A stretch of 64,000 nt of DNA, from assembly GCF_004295665.1 (NCBI RefSeq), contig NZ_CP034759.1, positions 1,550,001 through 1,614,000 of the forward strand. The letters run 5' to 3'. Source of the DNA: Litorilituus sediminis. Lineage in GTDB: Bacteria > Pseudomonadota > Gammaproteobacteria > Enterobacterales > Alteromonadaceae. Shown here one piece after another: positions 41,352 through 57,107 of the stretch (within the stretch, counting starts at the first letter, position 1; every line of letters begins with the position of its first letter). The notes beneath the pieces are model-generated. The model saw only the letters and a program-made list of their open reading frames with translations. It was not told where the DNA came from and searched no databases. A program made the translations under genes and the position numbers.

Positions 41352-42659
41352 TTATTTCCAAGAGCGCATTTTGCAGCCTTTTACTGCATAAAATAAAATA
41401 AACAGATAACAAGGTAGCATAACGATATAACCACCTTGTTGACCCATTGAGGTACCGCTTGCTAAGCCCCAAAATAAAGGACCAAATGCGCCGCCAGAGA
41501 TACCCATCACAAGTAATGCCGAACCAACACTGGTTAACTTGCCCATACCAGAAAGTGCTAATGGAAATACTGCTGGCCAGACAATTGCGTTAGCTAAACC
41601 CAGAAAGGCAATCAAAATTAAGGTATCAGGGAATGCAACATCACCTAAAATAAACGATAAGGCATTAGCAATGGCAAAAGAGTTATTATCCCCTAAGACA
41701 ACACCTAAACTAAGTACTACACCTAAAGCTGCCGAGACCATCAACGCAGTTTGTTGAGAGACATAACGAGGGATTAAGACAATACCTAAGATATAACCAA
41801 TAACCATACAGCCCATAGTATAAGAGGTCATAACACTATAGTTTTCAACACCTAGTGATAGTGCAAAAGTACCTATGGTATCACCTGCAATCACCTCAAC
41901 CGCGACATAGAAAAATAATGCCAGTACACCAAGTGCCAAGTTAGGGTGAGATAAGGCTTCTTTGATATGACCTTTGTTATCGCCCTCATCAGCTTCCTTT
42001 TCTAATTCTGGTAGAGGAGACTTTTTAACCGCAAAACCTAATAAACCAATAAATAGCGCCATACCTAAATACGGGAACACTAAAGCATTTGCCATAGCGT
42101 CAATCTTTTCTTGTGATAAATCACCACTGGCGGTATCACTAAAGCCACTTAAAATCAACGCGGTAAACACAATAGGCGCCACCACACCTGCACCTTTATT
42201 TAAAATTCCCATAATGGAAATACGCGCTGCTGCTGACTCTTCTGGCCCGATACGGACAACGTATGGGTTAACAGCAGTTTGCAATAAGGTTTGCCCTGCC
42301 CCCATAACTAATTGCGCAAATAAAAATAGCGCAAAGACTTGAGTTTTCGCCGCAGGAATAAACAATAATCCGGCAAGCATCATAGTTGCCATACCTAACG
42401 CCATACCATTTTTATAGCCAACTCTGCGGATAATGGCGGCAGAAGGTAATGCGGTAAAAGTAACCGCAATATAAAATGAAAACAGAATTAACGAAGCTTG
42501 AAATGGCGTTAATTGCAAAATTTGTTTTAAATAAGGCATCAATGAGCCATTGAGCCAAGTGGCAAAGCCTAAGATAAAAAACAGCCCTGCCACGATAATC
42601 ATGGGTAAGGCATTACTTTTCTGCTTCTCTTGCTTATCTTGCGTAAGTGACATTTCCAT
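41352..42659 (-). CDS. nagP: N-acetylglucosamine permease NagP (MFS, FucP-like)
   Basis: This 435-residue sugar:H+ symporter-like protein has 12 predicted membrane helices in the FucP branch of the MFS. It shows GFATWLNGSLMPYLKQILQLTPFQASLI near the start and the GQTLLQTAVNPYVVRIGP motif. Shewanella NagP has the same type and imports GlcNAc across the inner membrane. GAGGAAGTT precedes the ATG. It is last in the nagK-nagA-nagP operon, whose context fixes the substrate better than sequence alone does. Confidence 0.9.
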   Translation of the reverse strand: MEMSLTQDKQEKQKSNALPMIIVAGLFFILGFATWLNGSLMPYLKQILQLTPFQASLILFSFYIAVTFTALPSAAIIRRVGYKNGMALGMATMMLAGLLFIPAAKTQVFALFLFAQLVMGAGQTLLQTAVNPYVVRIGPEESAAARISIMGILNKGAGVVAPIVFTALILSGFSDTASGDLSQEKIDAMANALVFPYLGMALFIGLLGFAVKKSPLPELEKEADEGDNKGHIKEALSHPNLALGVLALFFYVAVEVIAGDTIGTFALSLGVENYSVMTSYTMGCMVIGYILGIVLIPRYVSQQTALMVSAALGVVLSLGVVLGDNNSFAIANALSFILGDVAFPDTLILIAFLGLANAIVWPAVFPLALSGMGKLTSVGSALLVMGISGGAFGPLFWGLASGTSMGQQGGYIVMLPCYLFILFYAVKGCKMRSWK

Positions 42660-42720: not shown

Positions 42721-43851
42721 TTACAGTGCTTTACCTGAAATCCAGGTTTGTGACACAGTTAAGTCATCATTTAAAATGAGAAAATCTGCTTGCTTACCCA
42801 CTTTCAGTTCACCGCGAACAACCTCTTTACCTTGATAGATATACTGAGCTGGATATAAAGCTGCCATTTTCAACGATTCATCAAGGCTGATACCTAGACC
42901 TTGATAGGTATTTTTTACCGCAGTTGCCATATCAAGTGATGAGCCAGCTAATTCACCCGTGGTTGATGTTAACTTGCCATCTTCCACATATACGGTGCGA
43001 TCATACAAGGCAAACTGAGTTTGCTCTGTTCCTACTGGTGGCATGGCATCAGTCACTAAAAAAACTTTCCCTTGAGGTTTTGCCTTAATTGCGAGCTTAC
43101 AGCTGGCATAATCAACATGGTGACCATCAACGATCAAACCACAACTTGTAGCATCGTTTAATAGTGCACAACCAACAACCCCCGGCTCACGCCCTTGTAG
43201 TGGTGACATGGCATTAAATAAATGAGTAAAACCACTGGCACCGGCATTGACCGCTTGCTCAGCTGTTTGGTAATCCGCATTAGTATGGCCGAGGCAAACC
43301 TTAATGCCGAGCTCAACCATGCGCTGAATTTCTGCTGGCGATACCGTTTCTGGTGCAATAGTTACCATCACCTCACCAATATCTTGGCGAGAAAGCACCT
43401 GCCACTCTTCATCTGAAATTGCTCGAATATAATCCGCGCAATGAGTGCCTTTTTTAGCAACAGATAAGTGCGGCCCTTCAAAATGCACGCCAATAATACC
43501 CGGAACATTTTCTTTAATTGCTTGAGCAATAGCATCGGCAGCTTGTGCCATAACCGACACTTTATCGGTAATTAATGTTGGCAGCATAGCGGTAGTACCA
43601 AACTTGGCATGTGCCGCCATAATAGTTTTTAACTTTGCTACGCTGGGCTGATCATTAAATAAGGCACCGCCACCGCCATTGACTTGCAAATCAATATAAC
43701 CTGGCACAACTAATCCGCTAGCAACAATATCTACTTGGCTGGTATCTTCATCAATAGCCAAAATCTTGCCATCAGCAATAGTTAACACTTGCTCTTGTAA
43801 AAAGCGTTCACCATCAAATAATTTTGGCGTATGAATGCGTAATTGTGTCAT
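42721..43851 (-). CDS. nagA: N-acetylglucosamine-6-phosphate deacetylase NagA
   Basis: NagA hydrolyses GlcNAc-6-P to GlcN-6-P and acetate in the cytoplasm. The 376-residue amidohydrolase has the PGYIDLQVNGGGGALFND segment and the HFEGPHLSVAKKGTH metal region. CLGHTNADYQTAEQAVNAG, FTHLFNAMSPLQGREPG and the catalytic Asp in LVTDAMPPVG follow. AGGATCATAA precedes the ATG. It lies between nagK and nagP. Confidence 0.95.
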   Translation of the reverse strand: MTQLRIHTPKLFDGERFLQEQVLTIADGKILAIDEDTSQVDIVASGLVVPGYIDLQVNGGGGALFNDQPSVAKLKTIMAAHAKFGTTAMLPTLITDKVSVMAQAADAIAQAIKENVPGIIGVHFEGPHLSVAKKGTHCADYIRAISDEEWQVLSRQDIGEVMVTIAPETVSPAEIQRMVELGIKVCLGHTNADYQTAEQAVNAGASGFTHLFNAMSPLQGREPGVVGCALLNDATSCGLIVDGHHVDYASCKLAIKAKPQGKVFLVTDAMPPVGTEQTQFALYDRTVYVEDGKLTSTTGELAGSSLDMATAVKNTYQGLGISLDESLKMAALYPAQYIYQGKEVVRGELKVGKQADFLILNDDLTVSQTWISGKAL

Positions 43852-43911: not shown

Positions 43912-44814
43912 TTACGCTTGAAGTTTAGCGTGTTGCTTACGGGCAAATAAAACTGAACCAACCTCTGGCGGACTTAACGGCTCAGACAGTTGCGCTTGAA
44001 TCTCTTTTGCAAGCCATGGCTTTAATCGCGGGGTTAAACCGCCAATCATTGACATGCGCTTTGGATTCTTAGCCCAAAGCGTTCTTGCAATACTGTTAAT
44101 GTATTCGGCGCCTTCTTCTACTATACCAAGCGCAACCTTATCGCCTGCTTCAGCAGCATCAAAAACAAGATTCGCCAGTTGTGCATAATAGGTCGCCACT
44201 TTACCTGCGATGGCTTCGACTAATTCGGTATCATCTTTACAATTAAGCTTCTTAAGTAGTACTTGGTTCATGCTTGATGGTTCAATAACACCGTCAATTG
44301 AGAGCAATACATGTTTAGCCGCTTGTAAACCAAACCATGCACCACTGCCTTTATCACCATGTGGGAAACCGTGTGCACCAATAATAAACTCTTCATCGTC
44401 TATGCATGAGAAACCGCACGAACCGGTGCCTGAAATCATTACAGCACCATCTTGGCCTTGATGCGCGCCTAAGCAAGCAATAAGCAAATCTGTTGCTAAA
44501 TACATGTGCTTAAACGGATGTTGCCATGATTGCATTTTGTCAAAGAGTACAGGTAAATTAACGCCTGCTAAACCGACACCAGCTATAAGCTCATTTAATT
44601 CAATATGCGCTAAGCCTGCATCTTCTAAGGCCAGCTTGGCTGATTCGGTAATTGAGTTGGTTGCTTGTTCAAATCCATGTAAAGGGTTACCTGGGCCTGC
44701 AATGCCAGTACCAAGTATTTGGTTATCTTTATTCATAACAATGGCTTTACACTTACTGCCGCCACCATCAATACCTAAAAATAACTCATTGTCTATATCA
44801 CTGCTTTTCAGCAT
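43912..44814 (-). CDS. nagK: GlcNAc kinase NagK (BadF/BadG/BcrA ATPase type)
   Basis: NagK phosphorylates GlcNAc to GlcNAc-6-P. The 300-residue protein has the ASKHA nucleotide-binding phosphate-1 motif LGIDGGGSKCKAIVM. The second motif ISGTGSCGF and the adenosine-region MSMIGGLTPRLKPW follow. It belongs to the BadF/BcrA-type kinases that replace classical NagK in Shewanella. It heads the operon, and a NagR palindrome lies 111 bases upstream of its start. Confidence 0.9.
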   Translation of the reverse strand: MLKSSDIDNELFLGIDGGGSKCKAIVMNKDNQILGTGIAGPGNPLHGFEQATNSITESAKLALEDAGLAHIELNELIAGVGLAGVNLPVLFDKMQSWQHPFKHMYLATDLLIACLGAHQGQDGAVMISGTGSCGFSCIDDEEFIIGAHGFPHGDKGSGAWFGLQAAKHVLLSIDGVIEPSSMNQVLLKKLNCKDDTELVEAIAGKVATYYAQLANLVFDAAEAGDKVALGIVEEGAEYINSIARTLWAKNPKRMSMIGGLTPRLKPWLAKEIQAQLSEPLSPPEVGSVLFARKQHAKLQA

Positions 44815-44924
44815 ACCAACCTCTAACTAACTATGTTGTCTCAATATAGTTTTCACAAACATACTCACCTAATATTTGGGAAAAATATATCGCTCACTTT
44901 TTGATTGTTTTCATCTTATCGCCA

Positions 44925-44942
44925 AATGACAGCGTTGTCATT
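44925..44942. promoter_or_regulatory. NagR operator upstream of nagK
   Basis: AATGACAGCGTTGTCATT is a palindrome with a single central mismatch. It is very close to the NagR motif described in Shewanella GlcNAc regulons. It probably controls nagK-nagA-nagP. Confidence 0.85.
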
Positions 44943-44996
44943 TACTTTTTTTACAAATTCAGCGCTTTTTTTACATTCTGCCAAATAAAAGAAGTA

Positions 44997-45043: not shown

Positions 45044-47731
45044 TTAACCTGCTTGCTTAACTGATGTGGTACGGCCTGCTCGATTACCATTTAGGCTACG
45101 GCTGCGTACTTTCACATCACCTGTCACTTCAACTGGCCCTTGATAGCGTTGCCACTGTCCATCTGCCACTTGATACTCAATCGTTAAGCCTGGAAAAGCA
45201 ATGTTGGCATGTAATTTACCTGCTTTGATTATCGCGCCTACCGTCGGTAAACGATAATCAATATTAGCCAACTCTAACTTGGCAAATTCTTTTTGCCCTA
45301 AGGTTTGTGCAAACACGCGCCATTGCTTATCGCGCTGTTGCTGCATTTCACTAGTAAAGGCATTCGTGTCTTGGCTATATTTCGCCCCTTGATAATTGTA
45401 AGGTACAGCCCAATCAGCTAAATGCCATGCTCTTTCAGCAAGTGCTAATAAACGTGGGAAGACTTTATGTTCTACCGTATTATCGGTGCGAGTATTTTCA
45501 CTCCATAACTGGCCTTGAATTCCTAAAAAGCGTGTACCGCTGACCAAAGGTGTTTTAGTGTCATCAGCTTCATATGGGTTTTCATTTCTATCAAACCAGA
45601 ACTCCGCATGTACTGGCAAATTGTCGGGCATAAACTGGAAAACTTTTTCAGTGTTAGTTTGACGAGATGCCCAGTAATAGCCATGCTCTTTCGGATCTGC
45701 TTCATACGGGAAGTCAAAATACAGTGCATCTGGGCTTGAGATAACCACTTGCCAATCACGATTTGCTAAGCCATGTACTTTTGAGTGACCGCCCCAAAAT
45801 AACGCATCCCAAGCATTAGCCTGTACAATGGCTGGCATATTCTCTTTGCGCGTATGCTCCATGCCATCGCTCCAGCCAGCGGTTTCAATATCAAGATCAG
45901 ATAAGATACCCGCAACACGTTCAATAAAATAAGCGCCCAACTCTTTCATATCGGTAACGCCTTTATCATTGTTAGCAACAAAGGCTTTACAAGCAGGCGA
46001 ATCAACCCAAGCACCCGCGGTTTCATCAGCGCCAATATGATAACGGGTCAGTGGCTGACCAGCCTCAGCGTGAATTTTCTTCACTTGCGTCATCACTTCA
46101 ATAACGAAATCATATGAAGACTCTAAACAAACATTAATGGTGTTATCACCATAAAACTGAACAGAAGAGTATTTGGTGGTATCGTCAAAATCATCAAGTA
46201 AAAATTGTTTCGCTTTAGCTTCATCTTCTTGCGCTTGGTATTTTTTATAACGCGCCGTCATAGCTTTAACCGATGAACGCGAATGTCCTGGCATATCTAA
46301 CGATGGGATAACCTGAATATGACGTGCTGTTGCCGCCTTTAATATCTCTTGATAATCAGCAACTGAGTAGTAGCCATTGACTGAACTGTTTTCATCAACA
46401 CCAGCACCAAGCTGTGGCATTAAGCAATTTTGCTCTTGGGTATCAAAACAGCGTTTAGCGCCAATTTGTGTCAGCTCAGGTAGGCTTGGTATTTCTAAAC
46501 GCCAACCTTCATCGTCACCAAGGTGTAAGTGTAATTTGTTTAACTTATATGCCGCCATTTGATCGAGTAAATCAAGAATAAATGCTTTCGAGTGAAAGTT
46601 TCGAGCAACGTCGACTAACATACCACGAAAGGCATAATGCGGCTCATCAACCACCTCAAGCAAAGGCAATGAATTTGAGCCTAAAGTAACCAATGAGGCA
46701 AGCGACATTAAACCATTAAACACGCCAGTTTCATCAACACCTTCAACGGCAATCCCCGAAGCGGTTACCGATAAATGATAACTACCTATCGGCTTACTAT
46801 CATCCGCAGCAATATTAAGCACCAAGGGTAAGGCATCTTTTGCAGAGCTAATATTTACAGATAAATCAGCTAATCTTGCTAAAGCTGCATCAACACCTTG
46901 CTGGGAGACATTGCCCAAATCTAATTTCAAACCTTTTGCTACATCAACTGTCGCGCCGTTATCTCTATAAGTCACCGACTTAGGCGTAGGAATTATTTGC
47001 TTGGCTATAGTAGGCTGTAAAGCTAGCTTATGACTATCAAACATCTCAGCGTTACGCTGGTATAAAGATGCGCTATTTAGCCATTGGGTCTTATCTTTGG
47101 CATTACGCTTAAACTGTTTTTCATGATCAGTAATAGCGACAACATGCGACAGCATTTCTAAGCCAGTTTCTTCGTCAATATAAGGTTTAGTACTTTCAAT
47201 AACATGCGCTTTGCTATTATCAGCACTGACGATATAGTTTGGCATCGCATCAGATTCAGCCAGTGACCAGTATTGTGCTCTAAAGCGCAAGCGCTTAGTT
47301 TCACCCTGGGCAAAACCTGTAAAGTTATCCTTTAAAGTGAGCAAATGTAAATCACCATTAAGGTGTTTAACACTTAGCTGGTCACTTTCGTAAGACTGAA
47401 TGGGTGATATTTGACTAAAATGAATACGCCAATCTTTAGCGCTAATGGCTTTAGTTGCAGTAAAAGCAATTTCAGCTTCAAAACAAAGGCCATCGGCAAT
47501 ATCTTTATTACACTGCTCAGACGGAATATTGGTTAATACTTGATATTTAACCTGCAAACTTTCAGCAATTGCTTTAACATCTTTTTCAGTCGCAGAATGT
47601 AAAGCTATTAACGGATGTTCTGCCTGCTTAGTTTCACTGTTAACGCTGTTTTCACTGGCAGGCGTATTCGAGTCACATGCCATTAAAGTTAAGCTTGATG
47701 CGATAGCTAATGCTAAAAATCTTTTCTTCAT
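45044..47731 (-). CDS. Beta-N-acetylhexosaminidase, GH20 lipoprotein
   Basis: This 895-residue enzyme splits chitobiose and longer GlcNAc oligomers into GlcNAc. A lipobox LMAC places Cys at about residue 19, so it is anchored in the outer membrane or periplasm. The domains are an N-terminal carbohydrate-binding CHB_HEX domain (about 45-190), a GH20b domain and a GH20 barrel with YRGMLVDVARNFHSKAFILD-like and HIGADETAGAW (catalytic Asp-Glu) motifs. A C-terminal CHB_HEX domain ends the protein. GGAAGATATA precedes the ATG. It is divergent from sapC across a shared NagR palindrome. Confidence 0.94.
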   Translation of the reverse strand: MKKRFLALAIASSLTLMACDSNTPASENSVNSETKQAEHPLIALHSATEKDVKAIAESLQVKYQVLTNIPSEQCNKDIADGLCFEAEIAFTATKAISAKDWRIHFSQISPIQSYESDQLSVKHLNGDLHLLTLKDNFTGFAQGETKRLRFRAQYWSLAESDAMPNYIVSADNSKAHVIESTKPYIDEETGLEMLSHVVAITDHEKQFKRNAKDKTQWLNSASLYQRNAEMFDSHKLALQPTIAKQIIPTPKSVTYRDNGATVDVAKGLKLDLGNVSQQGVDAALARLADLSVNISSAKDALPLVLNIAADDSKPIGSYHLSVTASGIAVEGVDETGVFNGLMSLASLVTLGSNSLPLLEVVDEPHYAFRGMLVDVARNFHSKAFILDLLDQMAAYKLNKLHLHLGDDEGWRLEIPSLPELTQIGAKRCFDTQEQNCLMPQLGAGVDENSSVNGYYSVADYQEILKAATARHIQVIPSLDMPGHSRSSVKAMTARYKKYQAQEDEAKAKQFLLDDFDDTTKYSSVQFYGDNTINVCLESSYDFVIEVMTQVKKIHAEAGQPLTRYHIGADETAGAWVDSPACKAFVANNDKGVTDMKELGAYFIERVAGILSDLDIETAGWSDGMEHTRKENMPAIVQANAWDALFWGGHSKVHGLANRDWQVVISSPDALYFDFPYEADPKEHGYYWASRQTNTEKVFQFMPDNLPVHAEFWFDRNENPYEADDTKTPLVSGTRFLGIQGQLWSENTRTDNTVEHKVFPRLLALAERAWHLADWAVPYNYQGAKYSQDTNAFTSEMQQQRDKQWRVFAQTLGQKEFAKLELANIDYRLPTVGAIIKAGKLHANIAFPGLTIEYQVADGQWQRYQGPVEVTGDVKVRSRSLNGNRAGRTTSVKQAG

Positions 47732-47823: not shown

Positions 47824-47847
47824 AGTTTTGACAGCGCTGTCAAAACT
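47824..47847. promoter_or_regulatory. NagR operator between hex and sapC
   Basis: A perfect 24-bp palindrome has core TTTTGACAGCGCTGTCAAAA. It is centred 104 bases upstream of hex and about 111 bases upstream of sapC, so one site can control both divergent genes. Confidence 0.88.
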
Positions 47848-47946: not shown

Positions 47947-48654
47947 ATGAGTAATAAAACCCCACTGCATAACGAAGCACATAAAGCGTTAAAAGTAACG
48001 GCAAGTAACGATTTTAGCCGTTTTAAGGCACAACACTTAATACCCGTTGTTGTACAAGAGTTTGCTCCTTTAGCTGCTGAATTCCCGATTGTGTTTGTTA
48101 AAAATTCAGACAATGGCCAATTTATTCCTGTTGCTTTAATGGGTTTAAAAGAAGGGGAAAACTTATACTGTCAAACAAACGAATGGCATAGCCCAGTGAC
48201 ACCGCTTGGCTTTAGAAACGCCCCGTTTTCTTTAGCTAAAGCTAGTGAGGATAGTAACGAAGCTACTGTTTGCATTGACTTAGATGATCCTCAAGTCAAC
48301 TCAGAAGATGGTCAGGCACTGTTTGATGATAAGGGTGAGCAAACTGAATTCTTAAAAAATCGTTCAAATGCGTTACTTGAGCTAGCACAATTCTCTCAAC
48401 AAACCACGGCCATCACGCAATATTTCGCACAAAAAGACTTGCTTGTATCACAACAATTAACCGTGAAATTAAATGAGCAACCGCTTACTATTAATGGCTT
48501 ATATTTAATTGACGAGAAGAAACTAGCTGAGCTAGCAACGCCAGAATTTGAAGACATACGAAGCAAGGGCTTATTACCATTAATTTATGCCCACCTAAAC
48601 TCTTTGCACCAAATCAACCGCTTAACCATGAAGCAACTGCAAAAAGACAAGTAA
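47947..48654 (+). CDS. SapC-family protein
   Basis: This 235-residue protein resembles the SapC family found beside TonB-dependent receptor genes in Alteromonadales and Caulobacter. It has IPVVVQEFAPLAAEFPIVFVKN near the start, then FIPVALMGLKEGENLYC. NGLYLIDEKKLAEL and LLPLIYAHLNSLHQINRL near the end are also family-like. It has no signal peptide. Its biochemical role is not established; co-occurrence suggests a part in GlcNAc sensing or uptake. It is divergent from hex and shares its NagR operator, though the ATG has no strong ribosome-binding site. Confidence 0.82.
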   Translation: MSNKTPLHNEAHKALKVTASNDFSRFKAQHLIPVVVQEFAPLAAEFPIVFVKNSDNGQFIPVALMGLKEGENLYCQTNEWHSPVTPLGFRNAPFSLAKASEDSNEATVCIDLDDPQVNSEDGQALFDDKGEQTEFLKNRSNALLELAQFSQQTTAITQYFAQKDLLVSQQLTVKLNEQPLTINGLYLIDEKKLAELATPEFEDIRSKGLLPLIYAHLNSLHQINRLTMKQLQKDK

Positions 48655-48707
48655 TACGATACAGCACCTGTTGATTTAGCCTATGACAACTCTAGGCTAA
48701 ATCATCA

Positions 48708-49355
48708 CTAACGTGGTGGAAAACCAACCTCGATAATAATGCAACTACGTGGCAAGTCGCTATTATGCACGCTAGTTGCATGAAAGGCTTTAGCATCATG
48801 ACACACTAAACGCCCTGCTTTTGATGCAATTTTATATTGCTTGTCTAGGGGGTATTCCTTAGCGCTAGCCCCCCGCATTAGCTCAAAATTATCATCATCG
48901 ATAAAAATCAAATCAGCACTCTCATCAGGAACCTGAGTGTAGAATATGGCCACTAAATGCGGAATAGACCAATCTTCACCAGCATGGCGATGGGCAACGG
49001 CATCACAACCTTTTGTCATTCGATTAACCCAAGTACGATGATACTTCATTTTTTTAATATTGCGGGTTTTATCCAAACCCAATGCTTGCGCTGATTGATA
49101 TAGGTTTCTTAGAATCCAAACTCCTAAGCGGGTTTGCTTAAAGTTTAGAATTTCTGGGATCACTAAACTTTGCGATAAATGCACTGTGGAAAATGCCCTA
49201 CCCCCTTGAGCATCATCAACATTTTCTTTGTTAATCACTTCAGGTAAAGCAAATAATTCATCGAGAATATTGTCCATGGCGACTTTTGTTTCAAGCTGAG
49301 CGTAATCGTCAAAATCATACACACAAATAGTTTGATTAAATACCTGTTGCTGCAT
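48708..49355 (-). CDS. Putative 2OG-Fe(II) oxygenase-like protein
   Basis: This 215-residue protein appears to have a double-stranded beta-helix core. The segments are YHRTWVNRMTKGCDAVAHRHAGEDWSIPHL-like, then LVAIFYTQVP, ADLIFIDDDN, and GRLVCHDAKAFHATSVH with RSCIIIEVGF. The spacing of His residues fits Fe(II)/2-oxoglutarate enzymes, but I cannot confirm a complete HxD..H triad. Such genes travel with sapC, halogenase and TonB receptors. AAGGTAACGCTT precedes the ATG. It is downstream of the halogenase by 32 bases. Confidence 0.65.
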   Translation of the reverse strand: MQQQVFNQTICVYDFDDYAQLETKVAMDNILDELFALPEVINKENVDDAQGGRAFSTVHLSQSLVIPEILNFKQTRLGVWILRNLYQSAQALGLDKTRNIKKMKYHRTWVNRMTKGCDAVAHRHAGEDWSIPHLVAIFYTQVPDESADLIFIDDDNFELMRGASAKEYPLDKQYKIASKAGRLVCHDAKAFHATSVHNSDLPRSCIIIEVGFPPR

Positions 49356-49387
49356 AAGCGTTACCTTTTGATCTTACCATGCTTCAA

Positions 49388-50911
49388 TTAACGAGCTTGC
49401 ATCGCTGCTTTTAAGCCCAACAGCCAATCTTTATGTTTCATTAAATGCTCTGGTGCTTTGGCAACTAAGTCATCATTTTGCAGCAACAAGCTTTTGCTGT
49501 GTTGTTGCTCTGCATCTGATATAGCAAGGGCTTTGGTCTGATATTTCATACCATAAAGCACATAGAGAAAGTTTTTATCATCGAACATATCAAAACGGCT
49601 AAAAAAATCTGACTGCTGTGGTGGTTTAGATTTAAACTTATTAAGCCTTTGAATTAGCTCATCGGAGTAAGTTGCCGGATCGCGATTTTCACACCAAAAT
49701 GCCGAGTCGGTCTTGTCAGATAAGCAATAGTGCAATTTAATAAAATCGACAGTGCGTTGCCACGCATAGCTAACCACCTCATTATAGTAGGGAGTTGTTG
49801 AATCAATCTCTGCTAACTCACGCGGAAAGTTACGGGCTAACAATTCCGCGGAAAAATCAGATAACAATATTGACGTTGCTTCTAAAGGCTCTAAAAAGCC
49901 TTGCGCTAAGCCTAAGGCGACACAGTTGTTTTGCCAGAAGGTTTCTCGATAGCCAATTTTCATAGGCAACTTTCTAGGATTAAAATCTTTACTATCAATG
50001 CCAAGGTACTCGGCATAAAGCGCTTTGGCTTCTTGTTCATCCATATGACGACTGGAGTAAACAAAGCCAGTACCACGCCTAGTGGTTAATGGAATATCCC
50101 AAATCCAGCCTGCTTTATGTGCTGTGGCGGTAGTATATGGGTTTAATGCTTCCTCTTCTGAAATAGGGACTTGTTGTACCAACACCGTATCGGTTAGTAG
50201 CTCATCAGCCTTAGAGATAAAAGGTACCTTTAAGGCTTTATCGATTAAAATTGAGGAAAAACCGCTACAATCAACATAAAAATCATAAGCAAGTAGCTCA
50301 CCCTGCTTAGTTTCTAAGTGGCTAATATTGCCCTTATCACACAATTTTGCTCCGGTCACCGTGGCAAATTGATGCTGTACTTTAAATCTTTGTTTGGCAT
50401 TATTGGCTAATAGCTGGGCAAACTTTGCCGCATCAAAATGATACGCGTACGACAACTGCCCTTGATACTCACCTGAACTCTTTAGCTTGGGCGCAAGCCC
50501 TAATTCACATACTCGCGCTTGTATACCGACATCATCAAATGGTCTGTGTTGTTCGTGAGCAAGCCAGTAAGGCGTGGCATTAAAGCCTTGCGGATATGGC
50601 GCATCAAATGGGTGATAGTAATAATTATCCTGACCATGCTTTTCGCTGTCTAGCCAATTAACAAACTTAATACCTTGCTTAAAGGTGGCATCGCAACTGA
50701 CTAAAAGCTCAGCTTCAGAGATACCAAAGCGTTCTAATCCTTTCATGATATAAGGCACTGTGCCTTCACCAACACCAATAGTCGGTACATCTGGCGATTC
50801 AATGACGGTAATTTCAATATTTTCTTCTGCGTTAAGCTCTGAGCCTAAGTGGTTTGCCGCCAACCAACCGGCAGTGCCAGCCCCAACAATGGCAATTCGT
50901 TTTATTTGCAT
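49388..50911 (-). CDS. Tryptophan-halogenase-like FAD-dependent protein
   Basis: This 507-residue flavoprotein has the FAD motif IAIVGAGTAGWLAANHLG at residues 6-23 and the halogenase signature GWIWDIPL (WxWxIP). TFKQGIKFVNW carries the Lys position that is catalytic in PrnA. YVDCSGFSSILI and VALGLAQGFLEPLEATSI are further family motifs. In TonB-receptor loci these proteins are common but their halide and substrate are unknown; indole chlorination need not be the real reaction. GAGGACGTT precedes the ATG. Confidence 0.85.
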   Translation of the reverse strand: MQIKRIAIVGAGTAGWLAANHLGSELNAEENIEITVIESPDVPTIGVGEGTVPYIMKGLERFGISEAELLVSCDATFKQGIKFVNWLDSEKHGQDNYYYHPFDAPYPQGFNATPYWLAHEQHRPFDDVGIQARVCELGLAPKLKSSGEYQGQLSYAYHFDAAKFAQLLANNAKQRFKVQHQFATVTGAKLCDKGNISHLETKQGELLAYDFYVDCSGFSSILIDKALKVPFISKADELLTDTVLVQQVPISEEEALNPYTTATAHKAGWIWDIPLTTRRGTGFVYSSRHMDEQEAKALYAEYLGIDSKDFNPRKLPMKIGYRETFWQNNCVALGLAQGFLEPLEATSILLSDFSAELLARNFPRELAEIDSTTPYYNEVVSYAWQRTVDFIKLHYCLSDKTDSAFWCENRDPATYSDELIQRLNKFKSKPPQQSDFFSRFDMFDDKNFLYVLYGMKYQTKALAISDAEQQHSKSLLLQNDDLVAKAPEHLMKHKDWLLGLKAAMQAR

Positions 50912-50953
50912 AACGTCCTCACATCATGAAAAAATCAGTAATTTCGGATATAA

Positions 50954-50979
50954 AAAAACCCAGCCGAAACTGGGTTTTT
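50954..50979. terminator. Terminator between the TonB receptor and the halogenase-like gene
   Basis: AAAAACCCAG and CTGGGTTTTT form a 10-bp stem with loop CCGAAA. It follows the receptor stop by 18 bases on the minus strand and may weaken read-through into the halogenase and oxygenase genes. Confidence 0.85.
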
Positions 50980-50996
50980 ATTTCAACTAGTTAAGA

Positions 50997-53654
50997 TTAG
51001 AAGTTAAAGCTAACACCTAACTTGTACGTAGTTTCACCACTAAATGACCACGTTGGGTAACCATCTTGTAGTGCTGGTTTAACATCAGTACCTGGAGCTG
51101 CTGCACCGTATTGGATATCGTCTTCACCCGTTAAGTTAACTACTTCTAACTTAACTAAGATGTTATCAGTTGCATTCCAACCTAAGGTAAGATCTAAAGT
51201 ACCAAAGTCATCATGCATACGGTTACCATAGTATTTACCGTATTCACGAACCATGTACTCTGAACGCCAGTTATAAGCAGCACGTGCAGAGAAGTCATCA
51301 TTTTCCCAGTAACCTACTAAGTTAGCGGTATGGTCTGAAGACTCAGTAAATACACCAATATTATCAGTGTAAACTTCAGCAGGAGCGGCACCGTCAGTGA
51401 AGGTATAGTTAGCGTTTACACCAAAACCGTTATCCCACGCATGGTTAATTTGTAGCTCGATACCATCGATAGTACCACCGCCAGCATTTTCGTACTGGTG
51501 AATAGTCCAGCTATCAACATTACCTTCAGGGTCAATATCTAAGTTTGGTACACCAATTTGTTGGTCAAACTCAGTTGATGCAACGATAAAGTTACTGATG
51601 TCTTTAACAAAGTAAGTTGCAGACACTAAGTTACCGTCACCGTAGTAGTACTCGATACTTAAATCAGCTTGCGAAGATTTCATCGGTAATAAACCTGGGC
51701 TACCGTAAGTGATTTCTTCGTTACCTTGACGATCATCTGGATAACCAGAAATCGCTGATAAGAATAAGTTATCATAGCTAGGACGCGTAATCGCTTGTGC
51801 AGCAGAGAAACGTAATAGTACGTCTTGTGCTAAGTCAAATGACACGTTAAAGCTTGGTAATACATCGTTATAGCTTTCGTTATGGCTAATAACTTCTTCA
51901 CTCCAACCTGCGTTTGCTGGTAAGTCATCCTCTGGTGAGTTATCAATTTCATGACCATGTGAAGTTACATCTGTGTAGATATAACGTAAACCGAAGTTAC
52001 CGCGGAAACCGTCACCTTCAAAAGTGAACATACCGTATAATGAGAAGTTATCTTCTTCAATTAAACCGTAACCTGGACGGTTGTATGTAAAGTGGTCAAC
52101 TAAATCTAAAGTGCCATTAATCATAGCATCTAGGTTTGCTTTTGGAATCGTGTACTCAGCAGCGCCTAGCTTCATTGTACCTGAGTATAAATCTTCAGTA
52201 TTAAATGAGTTAGGAGCATCGGTATAACGTGCATTGTAGAAAGACTTCTTAAATTCGTGCGAAGTATAACGAACACCCGTTTCAAACTTAGTGATTGCGC
52301 CTAAGTCTAAGTCGAAATCTACATCTAATTGAACGTATTTTTCTTCATCTGAGTTAGGACCTTGTACACCAGTCCACTGTGACGTACCAACAGTAGTATC
52401 TAATTGATCACGTGTGAAGCTCATATCACGACCGTTAATCGCAATTTGCTTACCAGTTGCGTCAACTTTACCAGCCCATTTCACTTGACCGAAGTTGTCA
52501 CCCCACCAACCGTAACCAAAGTTTGCACTCATTTGAGTACCACCTTCAGCAGATGTGTTACCAGCTACAGCTGCGATAGCGAAACCATCACCTTCATAAT
52601 TTACGTTAAATTCGAACGTCTCTGAAGTCATTTCACCTTTACGTGCCCAGTTTTGGAAGAACACATCAGTTGGTGCGCTTTCTGGCGTATCACTAATAGT
52701 ACACACACCAGCATTGTTAAATTGTTGACAGTTTGACTCACCAGCACCCCAGTTAGTGTCAGTGTTGATGTACATGTTGGCACCGATGCTGTCTGCACCT
52801 AGCTCAAGAGATAACATGTGGAAGCCAAACTCTAGGTTATCAGTAGGACGATACTGAATAGTTGCATCTAATGCGGTACGCTCTTGGTTTTGTAAGAAGC
52901 TTGATGGCTGAATAGAAGAACGACCACCCCAGTCTAAATCAGACTCAGTACCTACACGTAAATATTCACGATCTACGTATGAACCAGCAACTAAAATACC
53001 AAATGTTTCAGAATCGTTTTTCCAGCTATATAAACCAGAGAACTCAGGAGAAACTGTTTCATTGATTGAACCGTACTCACCTTTTAAGCCAGCAAATACA
53101 GTGTTGGCATCCATATCTAATGGCTTACGTGTTTTAACGATTACCGTACCACCAATACCACCTTCTACTAGGTTTGCTTGGCTTGACTTATAAACTTCCA
53201 TGCCACCAATTAACTCAGACGGTAACATTGAGTAGTTAAATGAACGGTCAATGTTTAATTGATCGTACCAACCAGTTGAGGCAACATTTTGACCGTTTAA
53301 GGTAGTTAATGTCATCACAGGATCTGTACCACGAATTGATACTGATGCACCTTGACCAAATGAACGGCCTACAGTAACACCAGGAATACGACCTAAGGCT
53401 TGACCAACATCTGAATCAGGGAACTGACCAATATCTTCTGCAGAAACAGCATCTACAACTGCATCAGCAAAACGCTTAGCATTTACGCTAGCACGGTTAG
53501 AACCACGAATACCAGTAACTTGAATTACTTCAACTTCGTCTTTGTTTATTTCGGCATTAGCTTCATCAGCAGCAATAGCTTGCGATGATGCGCCAGCTAA
53601 GATCATAGCAATTGAACTTGCTAGCATGCCTTTTTTAAATGTTTTTGATGACAT
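50997..53654 (-). CDS. TonB-dependent outer-membrane receptor (GlcNAc/chitooligosaccharide)
   Basis: This outer-membrane transporter of about 885 residues has a signal peptide (MSSKTFKKGMLASSIAMILA, cleavage after SQAIA). A TonB-box-like VEVIQVTGIRGS leads into the plug domain (VDAVSAEDIGQFPDSDVGQALGRIPG). A 22-strand barrel follows and ends in VSFNF. The type belongs to the TBDR group that pairs with SapC and halogenase. The NagR operators and neighbours point to GlcNAc or its oligomers. I use the ATG at 53654 with GGGAAAG before it; the frame extends six codons to a GTG at 53672. Confidence 0.9.
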   Translation of the reverse strand: MSSKTFKKGMLASSIAMILAGASSQAIAADEANAEINKDEVEVIQVTGIRGSNRASVNAKRFADAVVDAVSAEDIGQFPDSDVGQALGRIPGVTVGRSFGQGASVSIRGTDPVMTLTTLNGQNVASTGWYDQLNIDRSFNYSMLPSELIGGMEVYKSSQANLVEGGIGGTVIVKTRKPLDMDANTVFAGLKGEYGSINETVSPEFSGLYSWKNDSETFGILVAGSYVDREYLRVGTESDLDWGGRSSIQPSSFLQNQERTALDATIQYRPTDNLEFGFHMLSLELGADSIGANMYINTDTNWGAGESNCQQFNNAGVCTISDTPESAPTDVFFQNWARKGEMTSETFEFNVNYEGDGFAIAAVAGNTSAEGGTQMSANFGYGWWGDNFGQVKWAGKVDATGKQIAINGRDMSFTRDQLDTTVGTSQWTGVQGPNSDEEKYVQLDVDFDLDLGAITKFETGVRYTSHEFKKSFYNARYTDAPNSFNTEDLYSGTMKLGAAEYTIPKANLDAMINGTLDLVDHFTYNRPGYGLIEEDNFSLYGMFTFEGDGFRGNFGLRYIYTDVTSHGHEIDNSPEDDLPANAGWSEEVISHNESYNDVLPSFNVSFDLAQDVLLRFSAAQAITRPSYDNLFLSAISGYPDDRQGNEEITYGSPGLLPMKSSQADLSIEYYYGDGNLVSATYFVKDISNFIVASTEFDQQIGVPNLDIDPEGNVDSWTIHQYENAGGGTIDGIELQINHAWDNGFGVNANYTFTDGAAPAEVYTDNIGVFTESSDHTANLVGYWENDDFSARAAYNWRSEYMVREYGKYYGNRMHDDFGTLDLTLGWNATDNILVKLEVVNLTGEDDIQYGAAAPGTDVKPALQDGYPTWSFSGETTYKLGVSFNF

Positions 53655-53726
53655 CGACTTTCCCTTACACACGTTTTGTTTTTTAAAATATTTTTTAATA
53701 ACTAGGTATAATAATTTTCATGTTTT

Positions 53727-53742
53727 ACGACAGCGCTGTCAT
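53727..53742. promoter_or_regulatory. NagR operator 1 upstream of the TonB receptor
   Basis: ACGACAGCGCTGTCAT holds the perfect 12-bp core GACAGCGCTGTC, 73 bases upstream of the receptor start codon. It is one of two close copies. Confidence 0.85.
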
Positions 53743-53748
53743 CAATTC

Positions 53749-53764
53749 ATGACAACGCTGTCAT
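53749..53764. promoter_or_regulatory. NagR operator 2 upstream of the TonB receptor
   Basis: ATGACAACGCTGTCAT is a palindrome with one central mismatch. It is centred 22 bases (about two helical turns) from operator 1, an arrangement that would favour cooperative repressor binding. Confidence 0.82.
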
Positions 53765-54129: not shown

Positions 54130-55770
54130 CTACTTTGCCTTTTGATAAAATCTCATCAAGCTAGCAGTTGAACAGTCATGATGCTCAGAAATAGCATCAT
54201 TTTCGAGTTCATGCTGAATGTCAGCCGCTAAACCTTTACCTAATTCAACGCCCCATTGGTCAAATGAACAGATTTGCAAAATAATACCTTGAACAAAAAT
54301 TTTGTGCTCATAGGCGGCAATAAGGCTACCTAACGTTTTCGGATCAATACGTTTTAATAAAATCGTATTGGTTGGTCTATTGCCCTTATGCACTTTATGT
54401 GGTGCTACTTTATCAATGTAGTCAGCTGTGCGCCCTTTCGCTTTTAAATCCGCTCTTACTTGCTTCTCGTCAACCCCGGCCATTAATGCTTGAGTTTGGG
54501 CAAAAAAGTTAGCCATTAAGGTTTCATGATGACCTTTAACTGGCGTGACACTCTCCACTGAGCCAATAAAATCAGCCGGAACAACATTATTGCTTTGGTG
54601 TAAGTACTGATAAAACGCATGTTGACCATTAATTCCTAACTCCCCCCAAATCGAAGGAACGGTTGCGTAATCAACTTCGTCGCCATGCCAAGTTACTGAC
54701 TTACCATTACTTTCCATTTCAGCTTGTTGTAAATACGCCGTCAGCATATGTAAGGTTTGATCATAAGGTAAAATGGCTTGTGATTGAGAGCCTAAGAATG
54801 TGGTATTCCACACGCTAATAAGCGCCATAATTGCCGGCATATTGTCTTTTAGTGGCGCCTTGATAAAGTGCTGATCCATATCGTGCGCACCTTCGAGTAG
54901 CTCCTTAAACTTCTCAAAGCCTAAATCAAGTGCAATGGCTAAACCTATGGCAGACCAAAGGGAGAAGCGGCCACCAACCCAATCCCACATATCAAAAATA
55001 TTGTCTTCTTCAATACCAAAGCTCATGGCATTTTCTTTATTCGCCGTTACCGCAACAAAGTGCTTAGCAACAGAAGATTCATCGAAAGAAGAGCTGGTTA
55101 ACCAATTAATTGCCGTTCTTGCATTGGTCATGGTTTCAGTTGTGGTAAAGGTTTTACTTGAGACAATAAAAAGTACTTTCTCAGGATCTAAAGGACGTAA
55201 AATTTCGACAATTTGCGCACCATCAACATTAGAAACATAGTGCACATTAACACTATTATCACTGTAATGTTTTAAGGCCTCAGTGACCATTTGCGGCCCT
55301 AAATTTGAGCCACCTACACCAATATTAACAATATCGGTAATGCGCTTACCTGAATAACCTTGCCAATGGCCTTCACGTACTTTATTAACAAACGCTTCCA
55401 TTTTTACCAACTGTTGCTGAACATGTTCAGTGATATTTTCGCCATCAAGTATTAACGGCTCATCACTTTGACGACGCAGCGCGGTATGCAGTACAGCGCG
55501 ATCTTCGGTTTTATTGATTTTATCACCACGAAACATGCGCTCACGCCACTGCTCAACTTCAGTCTCTTTGGCAAGTGCCAATAAGCTATCAATCGTTTCG
55601 CTATCAATTAAGTTTTTCGAGTAATCAAGCAGCATATTGGGCAATTCAATAGAAAACTTATTAAAACGGTCACTATCCTCGGCAAACAATGTATTCATAT
55701 GCTGAGACTTTTTCACCTGCGCGAGTTGTTGCAACTTCTTCCAACTGGCTAATGTTTGACGAGCTGACAT
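54130..55770 (-). CDS. pgi: Glucose-6-phosphate isomerase
   Basis: Pgi interconverts glucose-6-P and fructose-6-P. The 546 residues have DIVNIGVGGSNLGPQMVTEAL and VSSKTFTTTETMTNA (phosphate loop). GELGINGQHAFYQYLHQ and DQWGVELGKGLA, with the catalytic residues, follow. AGGAAAAAAT precedes the ATG. A NagR palindrome lies 135 bases upstream, so this isomerase is probably induced with GlcNAc use. It lies between nagR and the receptor gene. Confidence 0.96.
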   Translation of the reverse strand: MSARQTLASWKKLQQLAQVKKSQHMNTLFAEDSDRFNKFSIELPNMLLDYSKNLIDSETIDSLLALAKETEVEQWRERMFRGDKINKTEDRAVLHTALRRQSDEPLILDGENITEHVQQQLVKMEAFVNKVREGHWQGYSGKRITDIVNIGVGGSNLGPQMVTEALKHYSDNSVNVHYVSNVDGAQIVEILRPLDPEKVLFIVSSKTFTTTETMTNARTAINWLTSSSFDESSVAKHFVAVTANKENAMSFGIEEDNIFDMWDWVGGRFSLWSAIGLAIALDLGFEKFKELLEGAHDMDQHFIKAPLKDNMPAIMALISVWNTTFLGSQSQAILPYDQTLHMLTAYLQQAEMESNGKSVTWHGDEVDYATVPSIWGELGINGQHAFYQYLHQSNNVVPADFIGSVESVTPVKGHHETLMANFFAQTQALMAGVDEKQVRADLKAKGRTADYIDKVAPHKVHKGNRPTNTILLKRIDPKTLGSLIAAYEHKIFVQGIILQICSFDQWGVELGKGLAADIQHELENDAISEHHDCSTASLMRFYQKAK

Positions 55771-55904: not shown

Positions 55905-55922
55905 AATGACAGCGCTGTCAAT
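55905..55922. promoter_or_regulatory. NagR operator between pgi and nagR
   Basis: AATGACAGCGCTGTCAAT is an almost perfect palindrome in the divergent region. It lies 135 bases from the pgi start and 163 from the nagR start, and may mediate control of pgi plus autoregulation of nagR. Confidence 0.85.
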
Positions 55923-56084: not shown

Positions 56085-57107
56085 ATGAAAGCGACGATAA
56101 ACGATGTAGCAAAACACGCGGGAGTCTCGATAAAAACAGTATCTCGAGTCATAAATAATGAGCCATCCGTTAGGCAATTAACACGGGAAAAAGTACAAGC
56201 TGCTGTTGATGAATTAAATTATCAACCCAATTTATCTGCAAGAAATCTCGCGGGTACTAAATCATTCAGTATCACCTATGTCTACGACAACCCGAATGCC
56301 TACTATGTTATTGATATGCAAGAAGGTATTTTATCAGCCTGTCGTCAACAAGGCTTCGAGTTGCTGATCCACCCATGTGATGCAAAAAATGCCAATATCG
56401 CTGATGAAGTGGTTAACATGGTCAAACACTCGCGCACCGCAGGTTTAATCTTAACCCCCCCTTTTTCAGAGATGCCTGAATTCGTTAAACGTATGACAGA
56501 GCTTGATGTCAAGGTTGTTCGTATTATGTCGGGCGATATCGCGCCAGATGAATTAACTCCATGTGTTATGGTAAATGATAGGGAAGCGGCGCAAACCATA
56601 ACTCAACACTTAATTGACCTTGGCCATAAGAAAATTGGCTTTCTCGCGGGTGATGCTGAGCATATGTCAACCATTGAACGATATAAAGGCTATCGACGAG
56701 CATTAAAAGCTAATGATATCGCTTTTGATAAACGACTAGTCGTTGAAGGTGAGTACTCATTTGAATCAGGCGTACAAGGAGCAAAGCAACTTATGTCGGC
56801 AAGCTCAGCTGATGATATTACCCCAACAGCCGTATTCTCATGTAACGATGAAATTGCTGCCGGTGCTTTATTTGCAGCAAGATTAATGAATATTGCTATA
56901 CCTGAGCAACTTTCAATTGCTGGCTTTGAGAACAGCCCCTTCTCGCGTCAAACCTGGCCTAAGTTAACCACGGCCGATCAACCGAACAAAGAAATTGCTC
57001 AAGATGCTGCCAACTTATTGATTGCCCAAGTACGTAAACAAGAAAGCAAAACCACCACTAGCCAGTATATTCCACAACTGGTTGTTAGAGACTCAACCTC
57101 TGCGTAA
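56085..57107 (+). CDS. nagR: LacI-family repressor of the GlcNAc genes (NagR)
   Basis: This 340-residue LacI/GalR regulator starts with the helix-turn-helix INDVAKHAGVSIKTVSRVIN and the hinge helix region NYQPNLSARNLAG. The sugar-binding domain (about 62-335, FSITYVYDNPNAYYVIDMQEG to LVVRDSTS) follows. In Shewanella a LacI-type NagR recognises the same palindrome seen here five times, with GlcN-6-P or GlcNAc-6-P as the likely effector. Direct evidence is lacking. It is divergent from pgi. Confidence 0.88.
   Translation: MKATINDVAKHAGVSIKTVSRVINNEPSVRQLTREKVQAAVDELNYQPNLSARNLAGTKSFSITYVYDNPNAYYVIDMQEGILSACRQQGFELLIHPCDAKNANIADEVVNMVKHSRTAGLILTPPFSEMPEFVKRMTELDVKVVRIMSGDIAPDELTPCVMVNDREAAQTITQHLIDLGHKKIGFLAGDAEHMSTIERYKGYRRALKANDIAFDKRLVVEGEYSFESGVQGAKQLMSASSADDITPTAVFSCNDEIAAGALFAARLMNIAIPEQLSIAGFENSPFSRQTWPKLTTADQPNKEIAQDAANLLIAQVRKQESKTTTSQYIPQLVVRDSTSA

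Follow-up and report, generated by a model that had tools for sequence, protein, structure and literature searches.

The DNA window under study comprises 64 kb (bases 1550001-1614000) of the 4.28-Mb, single-contig genome of Litorilituus sediminis and contains a NagR-type locus for the use of N-acetylglucosamine (GlcNAc). Profile searches show that a set of four genes is embedded in this locus (NagP-NagA-NagK-Hex ... PGI-LacI): a TonB-dependent receptor, a flavin-dependent halogenase, a protein resembling 2-oxoglutarate (2OG)-Fe(II) oxygenases and a SapC-family protein. The first-pass annotation, made from the letters alone, had located these four genes, and all of them are indeed intact at the positions below and match their family profiles:

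47947-48654, plus strand: SapC-family protein, 235 amino acids (PF07277, 235 bits, E-value 1.1e-69, 220/220 profile positions).
48708-49355, minus strand: 2OG-Fe(II)-oxygenase-like protein (2OG-FeII_Oxy_5), 215 amino acids (PF13759, 36.7 bits against a cut-off of 27).
49388-50911, minus strand: BrvH-like flavin-dependent halogenase, 507 amino acids (Trp_halogenase PF04820, 427 bits, E-value 8e-128).
50997-53654, minus strand: TonB-dependent receptor of the TIGR01782 (Xanthomonas-Caulobacter) class (598.6 bits against a cut-off of 310).

The receptor, halogenase and 2OG genes are co-directional with gaps of only 85 and 32 bases, and SapC is transcribed from the hex side towards them. The receptor, whose open reading frame (ORF) has an alternative GTG start at 53672, is a predicted GlcNAc/chito-oligosaccharide receptor.

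The combination of halogenase and receptor extends well beyond this locus. Among 119 evenly sampled genomes of the order, the halogenase and a TIGR01782 receptor are found together in 28 genomes and are both lacking in 85, against 2 genomes with only the halogenase and 4 with only the receptor (Fisher 1e-20). In both halogenase-only genomes the gene adjoins a TonB receptor that scores below the search threshold. Similar tendencies are observed for 39 congeners: both families are present in 35 genomes and missing in the same 4. The genes are also physically close, as 70 of the 103 halogenases lie within 6 kb downstream of a TIGR01782 receptor on the same strand (0.4 expected; the count is a lower bound, with seven receptor candidates scored per genome) and 42 lie within 400 bp downstream. 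In the genus set a receptor is located at 6 kb or less from 58 of the 61 halogenases. A genome can hold up to 18 halogenase copies, and the module loci serve several sugar types, including beta-glucosides besides GlcNAc. The association is thus broader than initially assumed: a BrvH-like halogenase module is tied to one sugar-receptor class and is not specific for GlcNAc. The GlcNAc framing of the first-pass annotation was too narrow: beta-glucoside and other loci with this receptor class carry the module too, and there is a complete GlcNAc locus that lacks it.

The halogenases split into two deep clades, with the one from the GlcNAc locus in clade A. SapC is found nearby in 14 of 17 clade A loci against 3 of 16 clade B loci. 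Within each clade the tree of the halogenases diverges in parallel with that of the receptors (Mantel r 0.70 and 0.65, p 0.0005). A GlcNAc locus with another receptor type (L027) has a halogenase that differs in a corresponding way, which suggests that the enzyme tracks the receptor rather than the sugar. Outside the order we observe the arrangement TonB receptor-SapC-Cupin_8-halogenase-DUF6445 (L173) and a GlcNAc locus with TonB receptor-SapC-two halogenases-Hex (L186); near some of the halogenases there, no receptor was recognised. At one locus (L043, 93-16410) five halogenases, two receptors and one Cupin_8 gene are packed in 16 kb.

Predicted operators connect the set to its surroundings. 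The 64 kb contain five copies of the 14-bp palindrome TGACAGCGCTGTCA (at most 2 mismatches) against 0.13 expected by chance, and all copies are at promoter positions within the GlcNAc locus. The remaining features of this locus are:

41352-42659, minus strand: nagP, GlcNAc transporter (NagP_SO3503 equivalog, over cut-off).
42721-43851, minus strand: nagA (TIGR00221, over cut-off).
43912-44814, minus strand: nagK, kinase (NagK_SO3507 equivalog, over cut-off).
44924-44943: predicted operator upstream of nagK-nagA-nagP.
45044-47731, minus strand: hex, GH20 (Glyco_hydro_20).
47826-47845: predicted operator, perfect 20-bp palindrome TTTTGACAGCGCTGTCAAAA, common to hex (minus strand) and SapC (plus strand).
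53727-53764: two predicted NagR-type operators, ACGACAGCGCTGTCAT and ATGACAACGCTGTCAT, upstream of the receptor-halogenase-oxygenase operon.
54130-55770, minus strand: phosphoglucose isomerase, PGI (PF00342).
55905-55922: predicted operator between the LacI-type regulator and PGI.
56085-57107, plus strand: LacI-family regulator, NagR-like (LacI and Peripla_BP_3 domains; operator context).

The perfect palindrome is situated inside the 215-bp divergent gap between hex and SapC, in agreement with the earlier suggestion that SapC is under a shared hex operator. The 14-bp palindrome is found again in Litorilituus lipolyticus and in one genome from a different family, and the NagR of Shewanella is likewise a LacI-family protein (PMC2996990). 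Common NagR control is therefore predicted for the operon of receptor, halogenase and oxygenase and for the divergent promoter of hex and SapC. Together with co-occurrence, co-orientation and co-divergence, this predicted co-regulation supports the initial idea that the proteins act together with the receptor. The RegPrecise database presumably includes such genes in Alteromonadales sugar regulons. Neither halogenase nor SapC is mentioned in the 2016 regulon paper (PMC5343134). We found no paper that describes these genes and TonB receptors as one module; prior notice is possible in subscription work outside the search, for example in the study of Xanthomonas halogenase by Ismail (2019; cited in PMC8269204).

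The closest solved relatives of the halogenase are PDB 9lu2, 9ltb and 2pyx as well as 6frl (BrvH), followed by the tryptophan halogenases. Its FAD and WxWxIP motifs, previously described as intact, are present as GAGTAGW and WIWDIP. In the alignment with relatives the catalytic residues K78 and E344 and the residues W269, W271 and I273 (WxWxI) are invariant (59/59). The last residue of WxWxIP varies (P/G/A), and so does the halide-site loop (T/S, then S/A/G). Equivalents of the BrvH indole wall are retained (F443 as F in 56/59, S447 as S/N in 55/59); judged from its sequence, the window halogenase has M442, F443 and N447 at these positions and a short lid. Residues Y454, Y455, E461 and F465 of RebH bind the amino and carboxyl groups of tryptophan and are missing in BrvH (PMC5945002); in the SttH/BorH alignments and the 59-row alignment this clamp has no counterpart in the lid region either. 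BrvH brominates free indole at C3 with low turnover, does not accept tryptophan and has a solvent-open pocket. Its authors doubt that indole is the natural substrate, suggest larger ones and liken the enzyme to the peptide halogenase MibH (PMC5945002). By its residues, the window halogenase is of the BrvH-like open-pocket type. Given the short lid with an indole wall and no free-tryptophan clamp, free tryptophan is an unlikely substrate, whereas a tryptophan inside a larger molecule is plausible. To our knowledge, no natural substrate is known for BrvH-like halogenases. A flavin reductase was not recognised among the module genes.

The two partner proteins differ in how regularly they participate. 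No useful PDB match (best Foldseek E-value 0.26; VIA Z 3.3) was found for the confident AlphaFold2 (AF2) model of SapC (predicted local distance difference test, pLDDT, 91.6), which is no proof of a new fold. A second SapC gene in the same genome (C1:2509283-2509939; L007, 7185-7964) has no halogenase or receptor nearby. The first-pass annotation stated that the whole set recurs with TonB receptors in Alteromonadales. For halogenase and receptor this is true in the order, far beyond chance, but not for the 2OG gene, which has a relative in just one further genome of the order (2/395 in all). For Caulobacter, which was also named, the analysis covered family presence alone: C. vibrioides has members of PF04820, SapC and PF13759. 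A 51% identical 2OG protein occupies the same slot in the nag (GlcNAc) locus of another family (L137), with H122, H124, D128, H186, H192 and R203 conserved; the AF2 model is unusable (pLDDT 31.7). The gene is missing in the compared Litorilituus, and several congeners have a DUF6445 gene near that position, a family that matches the 2OG profile only below cut-off. At other module loci Cupin_8 (JmjC-like) proteins take part. The 2OG gene is consequently a rare, optional extra and not a regular member of the module. As different 2OG-type families are recruited to the same module, these oxygenases suggest optional oxidative tailoring.

As a tentative reading, possible but short of probable, we propose that TIGR01782-class sugar TonB receptors are accompanied by an accessory oxygenase module with the halogenase at its core, and that this module acts on peptide-borne indole, most likely in the receptor itself. 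The halogenase would generate HOBr or HOCl with FADH2 from a cell reductase and, like MibH, would direct it at an indole within a polypeptide. This polypeptide would most likely be the co-encoded receptor, modified in the cytoplasm prior to export, with SapC as a helper and optional hydroxylations contributed by 2OG/JmjC-type oxygenases. Sugar-binding proteins commonly stack their ligands on aromatic residues, so an altered tryptophan could tune ligand binding; it might also, more speculatively, block the attachment of phages or bacteriocins. The first-pass annotation had offered the receptor, a peptide partner or an unseen substrate as target. A peptide partner was not found: 127 intergenic gaps gave 246 candidate peptides (ATG starts, at least 18 codons), none of them a conserved small ORF, so the receptor is the one constant partner encoded in the loci. 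Some repeats ahead of receptors were rejected as peptide genes; they are present on both strands and resemble conserved promoter sequence.

The receptor sequences themselves yield no distinguishing tryptophan position or content, and a number of observations weigh against our proposal. In their tree, receptors that neighbour a halogenase are intermingled with those that do not, so both groups can be compared directly. No tryptophan column separates them (best p 0.0135 in 205 tests), the tryptophan content is equal (1.27% with against 1.24% without a halogenase neighbour), and in the closest two pairs the halogenase-free sister receptors differ at two or no tryptophan residues. The plug tryptophan W135, common to all GlcNAc receptors, was considered as a target signature and dropped, being present also in the receptor of a locus without halogenase (L157). 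The halogenase has changed more quickly than the receptor (74% against 96% identity to Litorilituus), and receptor-less orphan halogenases exist (L006, L029, L036). Furthermore, the Fisher test was run on genomes that lack phylogenetic independence, and co-divergence and co-occurrence may merely result from a common lifestyle and from the genes being inherited as one operon. Overall, the receptor sequence comparisons argue against one conserved tryptophan target; variable sites would be compatible with them.

Some details accompany these comparisons. The best column of any residue, Y633, goes with clade A (p 1.4e-5) and is not taken as evidence because the receptors are related. Analysis of dN/dS (nonsynonymous over synonymous rates) was dropped because synonymous sites are saturated in most pairs. 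The window receptor (50997-53654) is 96% identical to its Litorilituus counterpart (L008, 3530-6205) at dS 0.69, against 65-93% and mostly saturated synonymous sites for the neighbouring genes; either recent recombination or strong codon constraint could account for this. The orphan L006 is a clade A gene in the window's own genome (C1:969628-971004) that adjoins radical SAM and MFS genes, with no TonB receptor at 6 kb or less. Its arrangement is kept in synteny in a congener (L029), and the receptor-less halogenase of L036 is likewise near this radical SAM gene. Finally, the L157 congener has a GlcNAc locus with NagP, NagA, NagK, Hex, receptor and operators, lacking halogenase, SapC and 2OG gene; since such a complete locus exists, the module is accessory. 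The same genome holds a halogenase with SapC at its second GlcNAc locus (L027), so action in trans on the L157 receptor is possible.

Orphan copies would be readily explained if the halogenase worked independently of the receptor, making a small halogenated indole or aromatic metabolite (a signal, antimicrobial or siderophore-like compound) when sugar is present, with the receptor linked by regulation only. The catalytic residues are intact and BrvH does brominate free indole at C3 (PMC5945002). We nonetheless regard this as somewhat unlikely: the BrvH authors doubt a natural role for this slow reaction (PMC5945002), no biosynthetic gene set recurs around the halogenase, and up to 18 copies per genome with receptor-matched divergence fit poorly to one shared product. 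It might also be argued that the module modifies another common cell protein, such as SapC itself, a TonB/ExbB part or an export chaperone. This would agree with the lack of a halogenase-dependent tryptophan in the receptors and with the stand-alone SapC and halogenase genes. It is unlikely, however, as the sole near-invariant SapC tryptophan, W80, is missing in the GlcNAc-locus SapC of both Litorilituus (L008) and L031, which do have the halogenase, and most clade B loci lack SapC altogether.

A comparably low probability is given to the module being a passenger of sugar-receptor operons, co-inherited for a weak or conditional benefit while its enzyme substrate is unrelated to uptake. Here the complete nag locus without halogenase and the higher dN of the halogenase compared to the receptor would be expected, as would the presence of a halogenase in L046 (5966-11830) but not in L149 (5454-9530) or L151 (6754-10852), between the same receptor and aldo-keto-reductase-like gene. 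Against a passenger role speak the catalytic residues, invariant in 59/59 relatives, the near-perfect co-occurrence with one receptor class and the position downstream of predicted NagR operators. L046 and L149/L151 form a natural presence/absence pair, and one of the halogenase-free species is the window's own genome. Very unlikely, in our opinion, is an in vivo flavin oxidase or releaser of hypohalous acid that protects or senses in carbohydrate bursts. Variation in the halide-site loop and the lack of a recognised flavin reductase in the module would fit such an enzyme; the halogenase-typical Lys/Glu pair and WxWxI are invariant, though, and the relative BrvH is an active brominase (PMC5945002).

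The near one-to-one tie to one sugar-receptor class narrows the substrate search for BrvH-like enzymes to a testable candidate. If receptor modification is true, Gram-negative bacteria would have a new control layer for nutrient uptake, and protein halogenation a new class. In its widest and rather doubtful form, this would be a widespread, receptor-matched system of protein halogenation and hydroxylation, in which cytoplasmic flavin halogenases, together with SapC and 2OG/JmjC oxygenases, edit receptor aromatics before export and thereby change ligand binding or shield against phages and bacteriocins. If receptor modification is refuted, the module is still a common and unexplained investment of sugar scavengers, amounting to as many as 18 copies in a genome.

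Compared to known systems, the locus shares its catabolic genes, TonB receptor and LacI-type NagR with the Shewanella NagR regulon (nagP, nagK, nagA, nagB-II, omp-Nag; PMC2996990), whereas halogenases are not mentioned in the main text of that paper. The free-tryptophan halogenases RebH, PrnA, Thal and SttH have the fold family, the Lys/Glu pair and WxWxIP in common with the window halogenase, which in turn misses their long lid with the Tyr-Tyr-Glu-Phe clamp. MibH, the tryptophan halogenase of the lanthipeptide NAI-107, has an open pocket and acts on peptide tryptophan (the comparison with BrvH is from PMC5945002); it serves a peptide gene cluster, in contrast to the window module with no precursor peptide found. 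Most similar are BrvH of Brevundimonas (PDB 6frl), 9lu2, 9ltb and 2pyx, with the same family, catalytic residues, short lid and indole-wall positions. What sets the window gene apart from BrvH is its place in a NagR-type GlcNAc locus, adjoining SapC and a 2OG-like gene.

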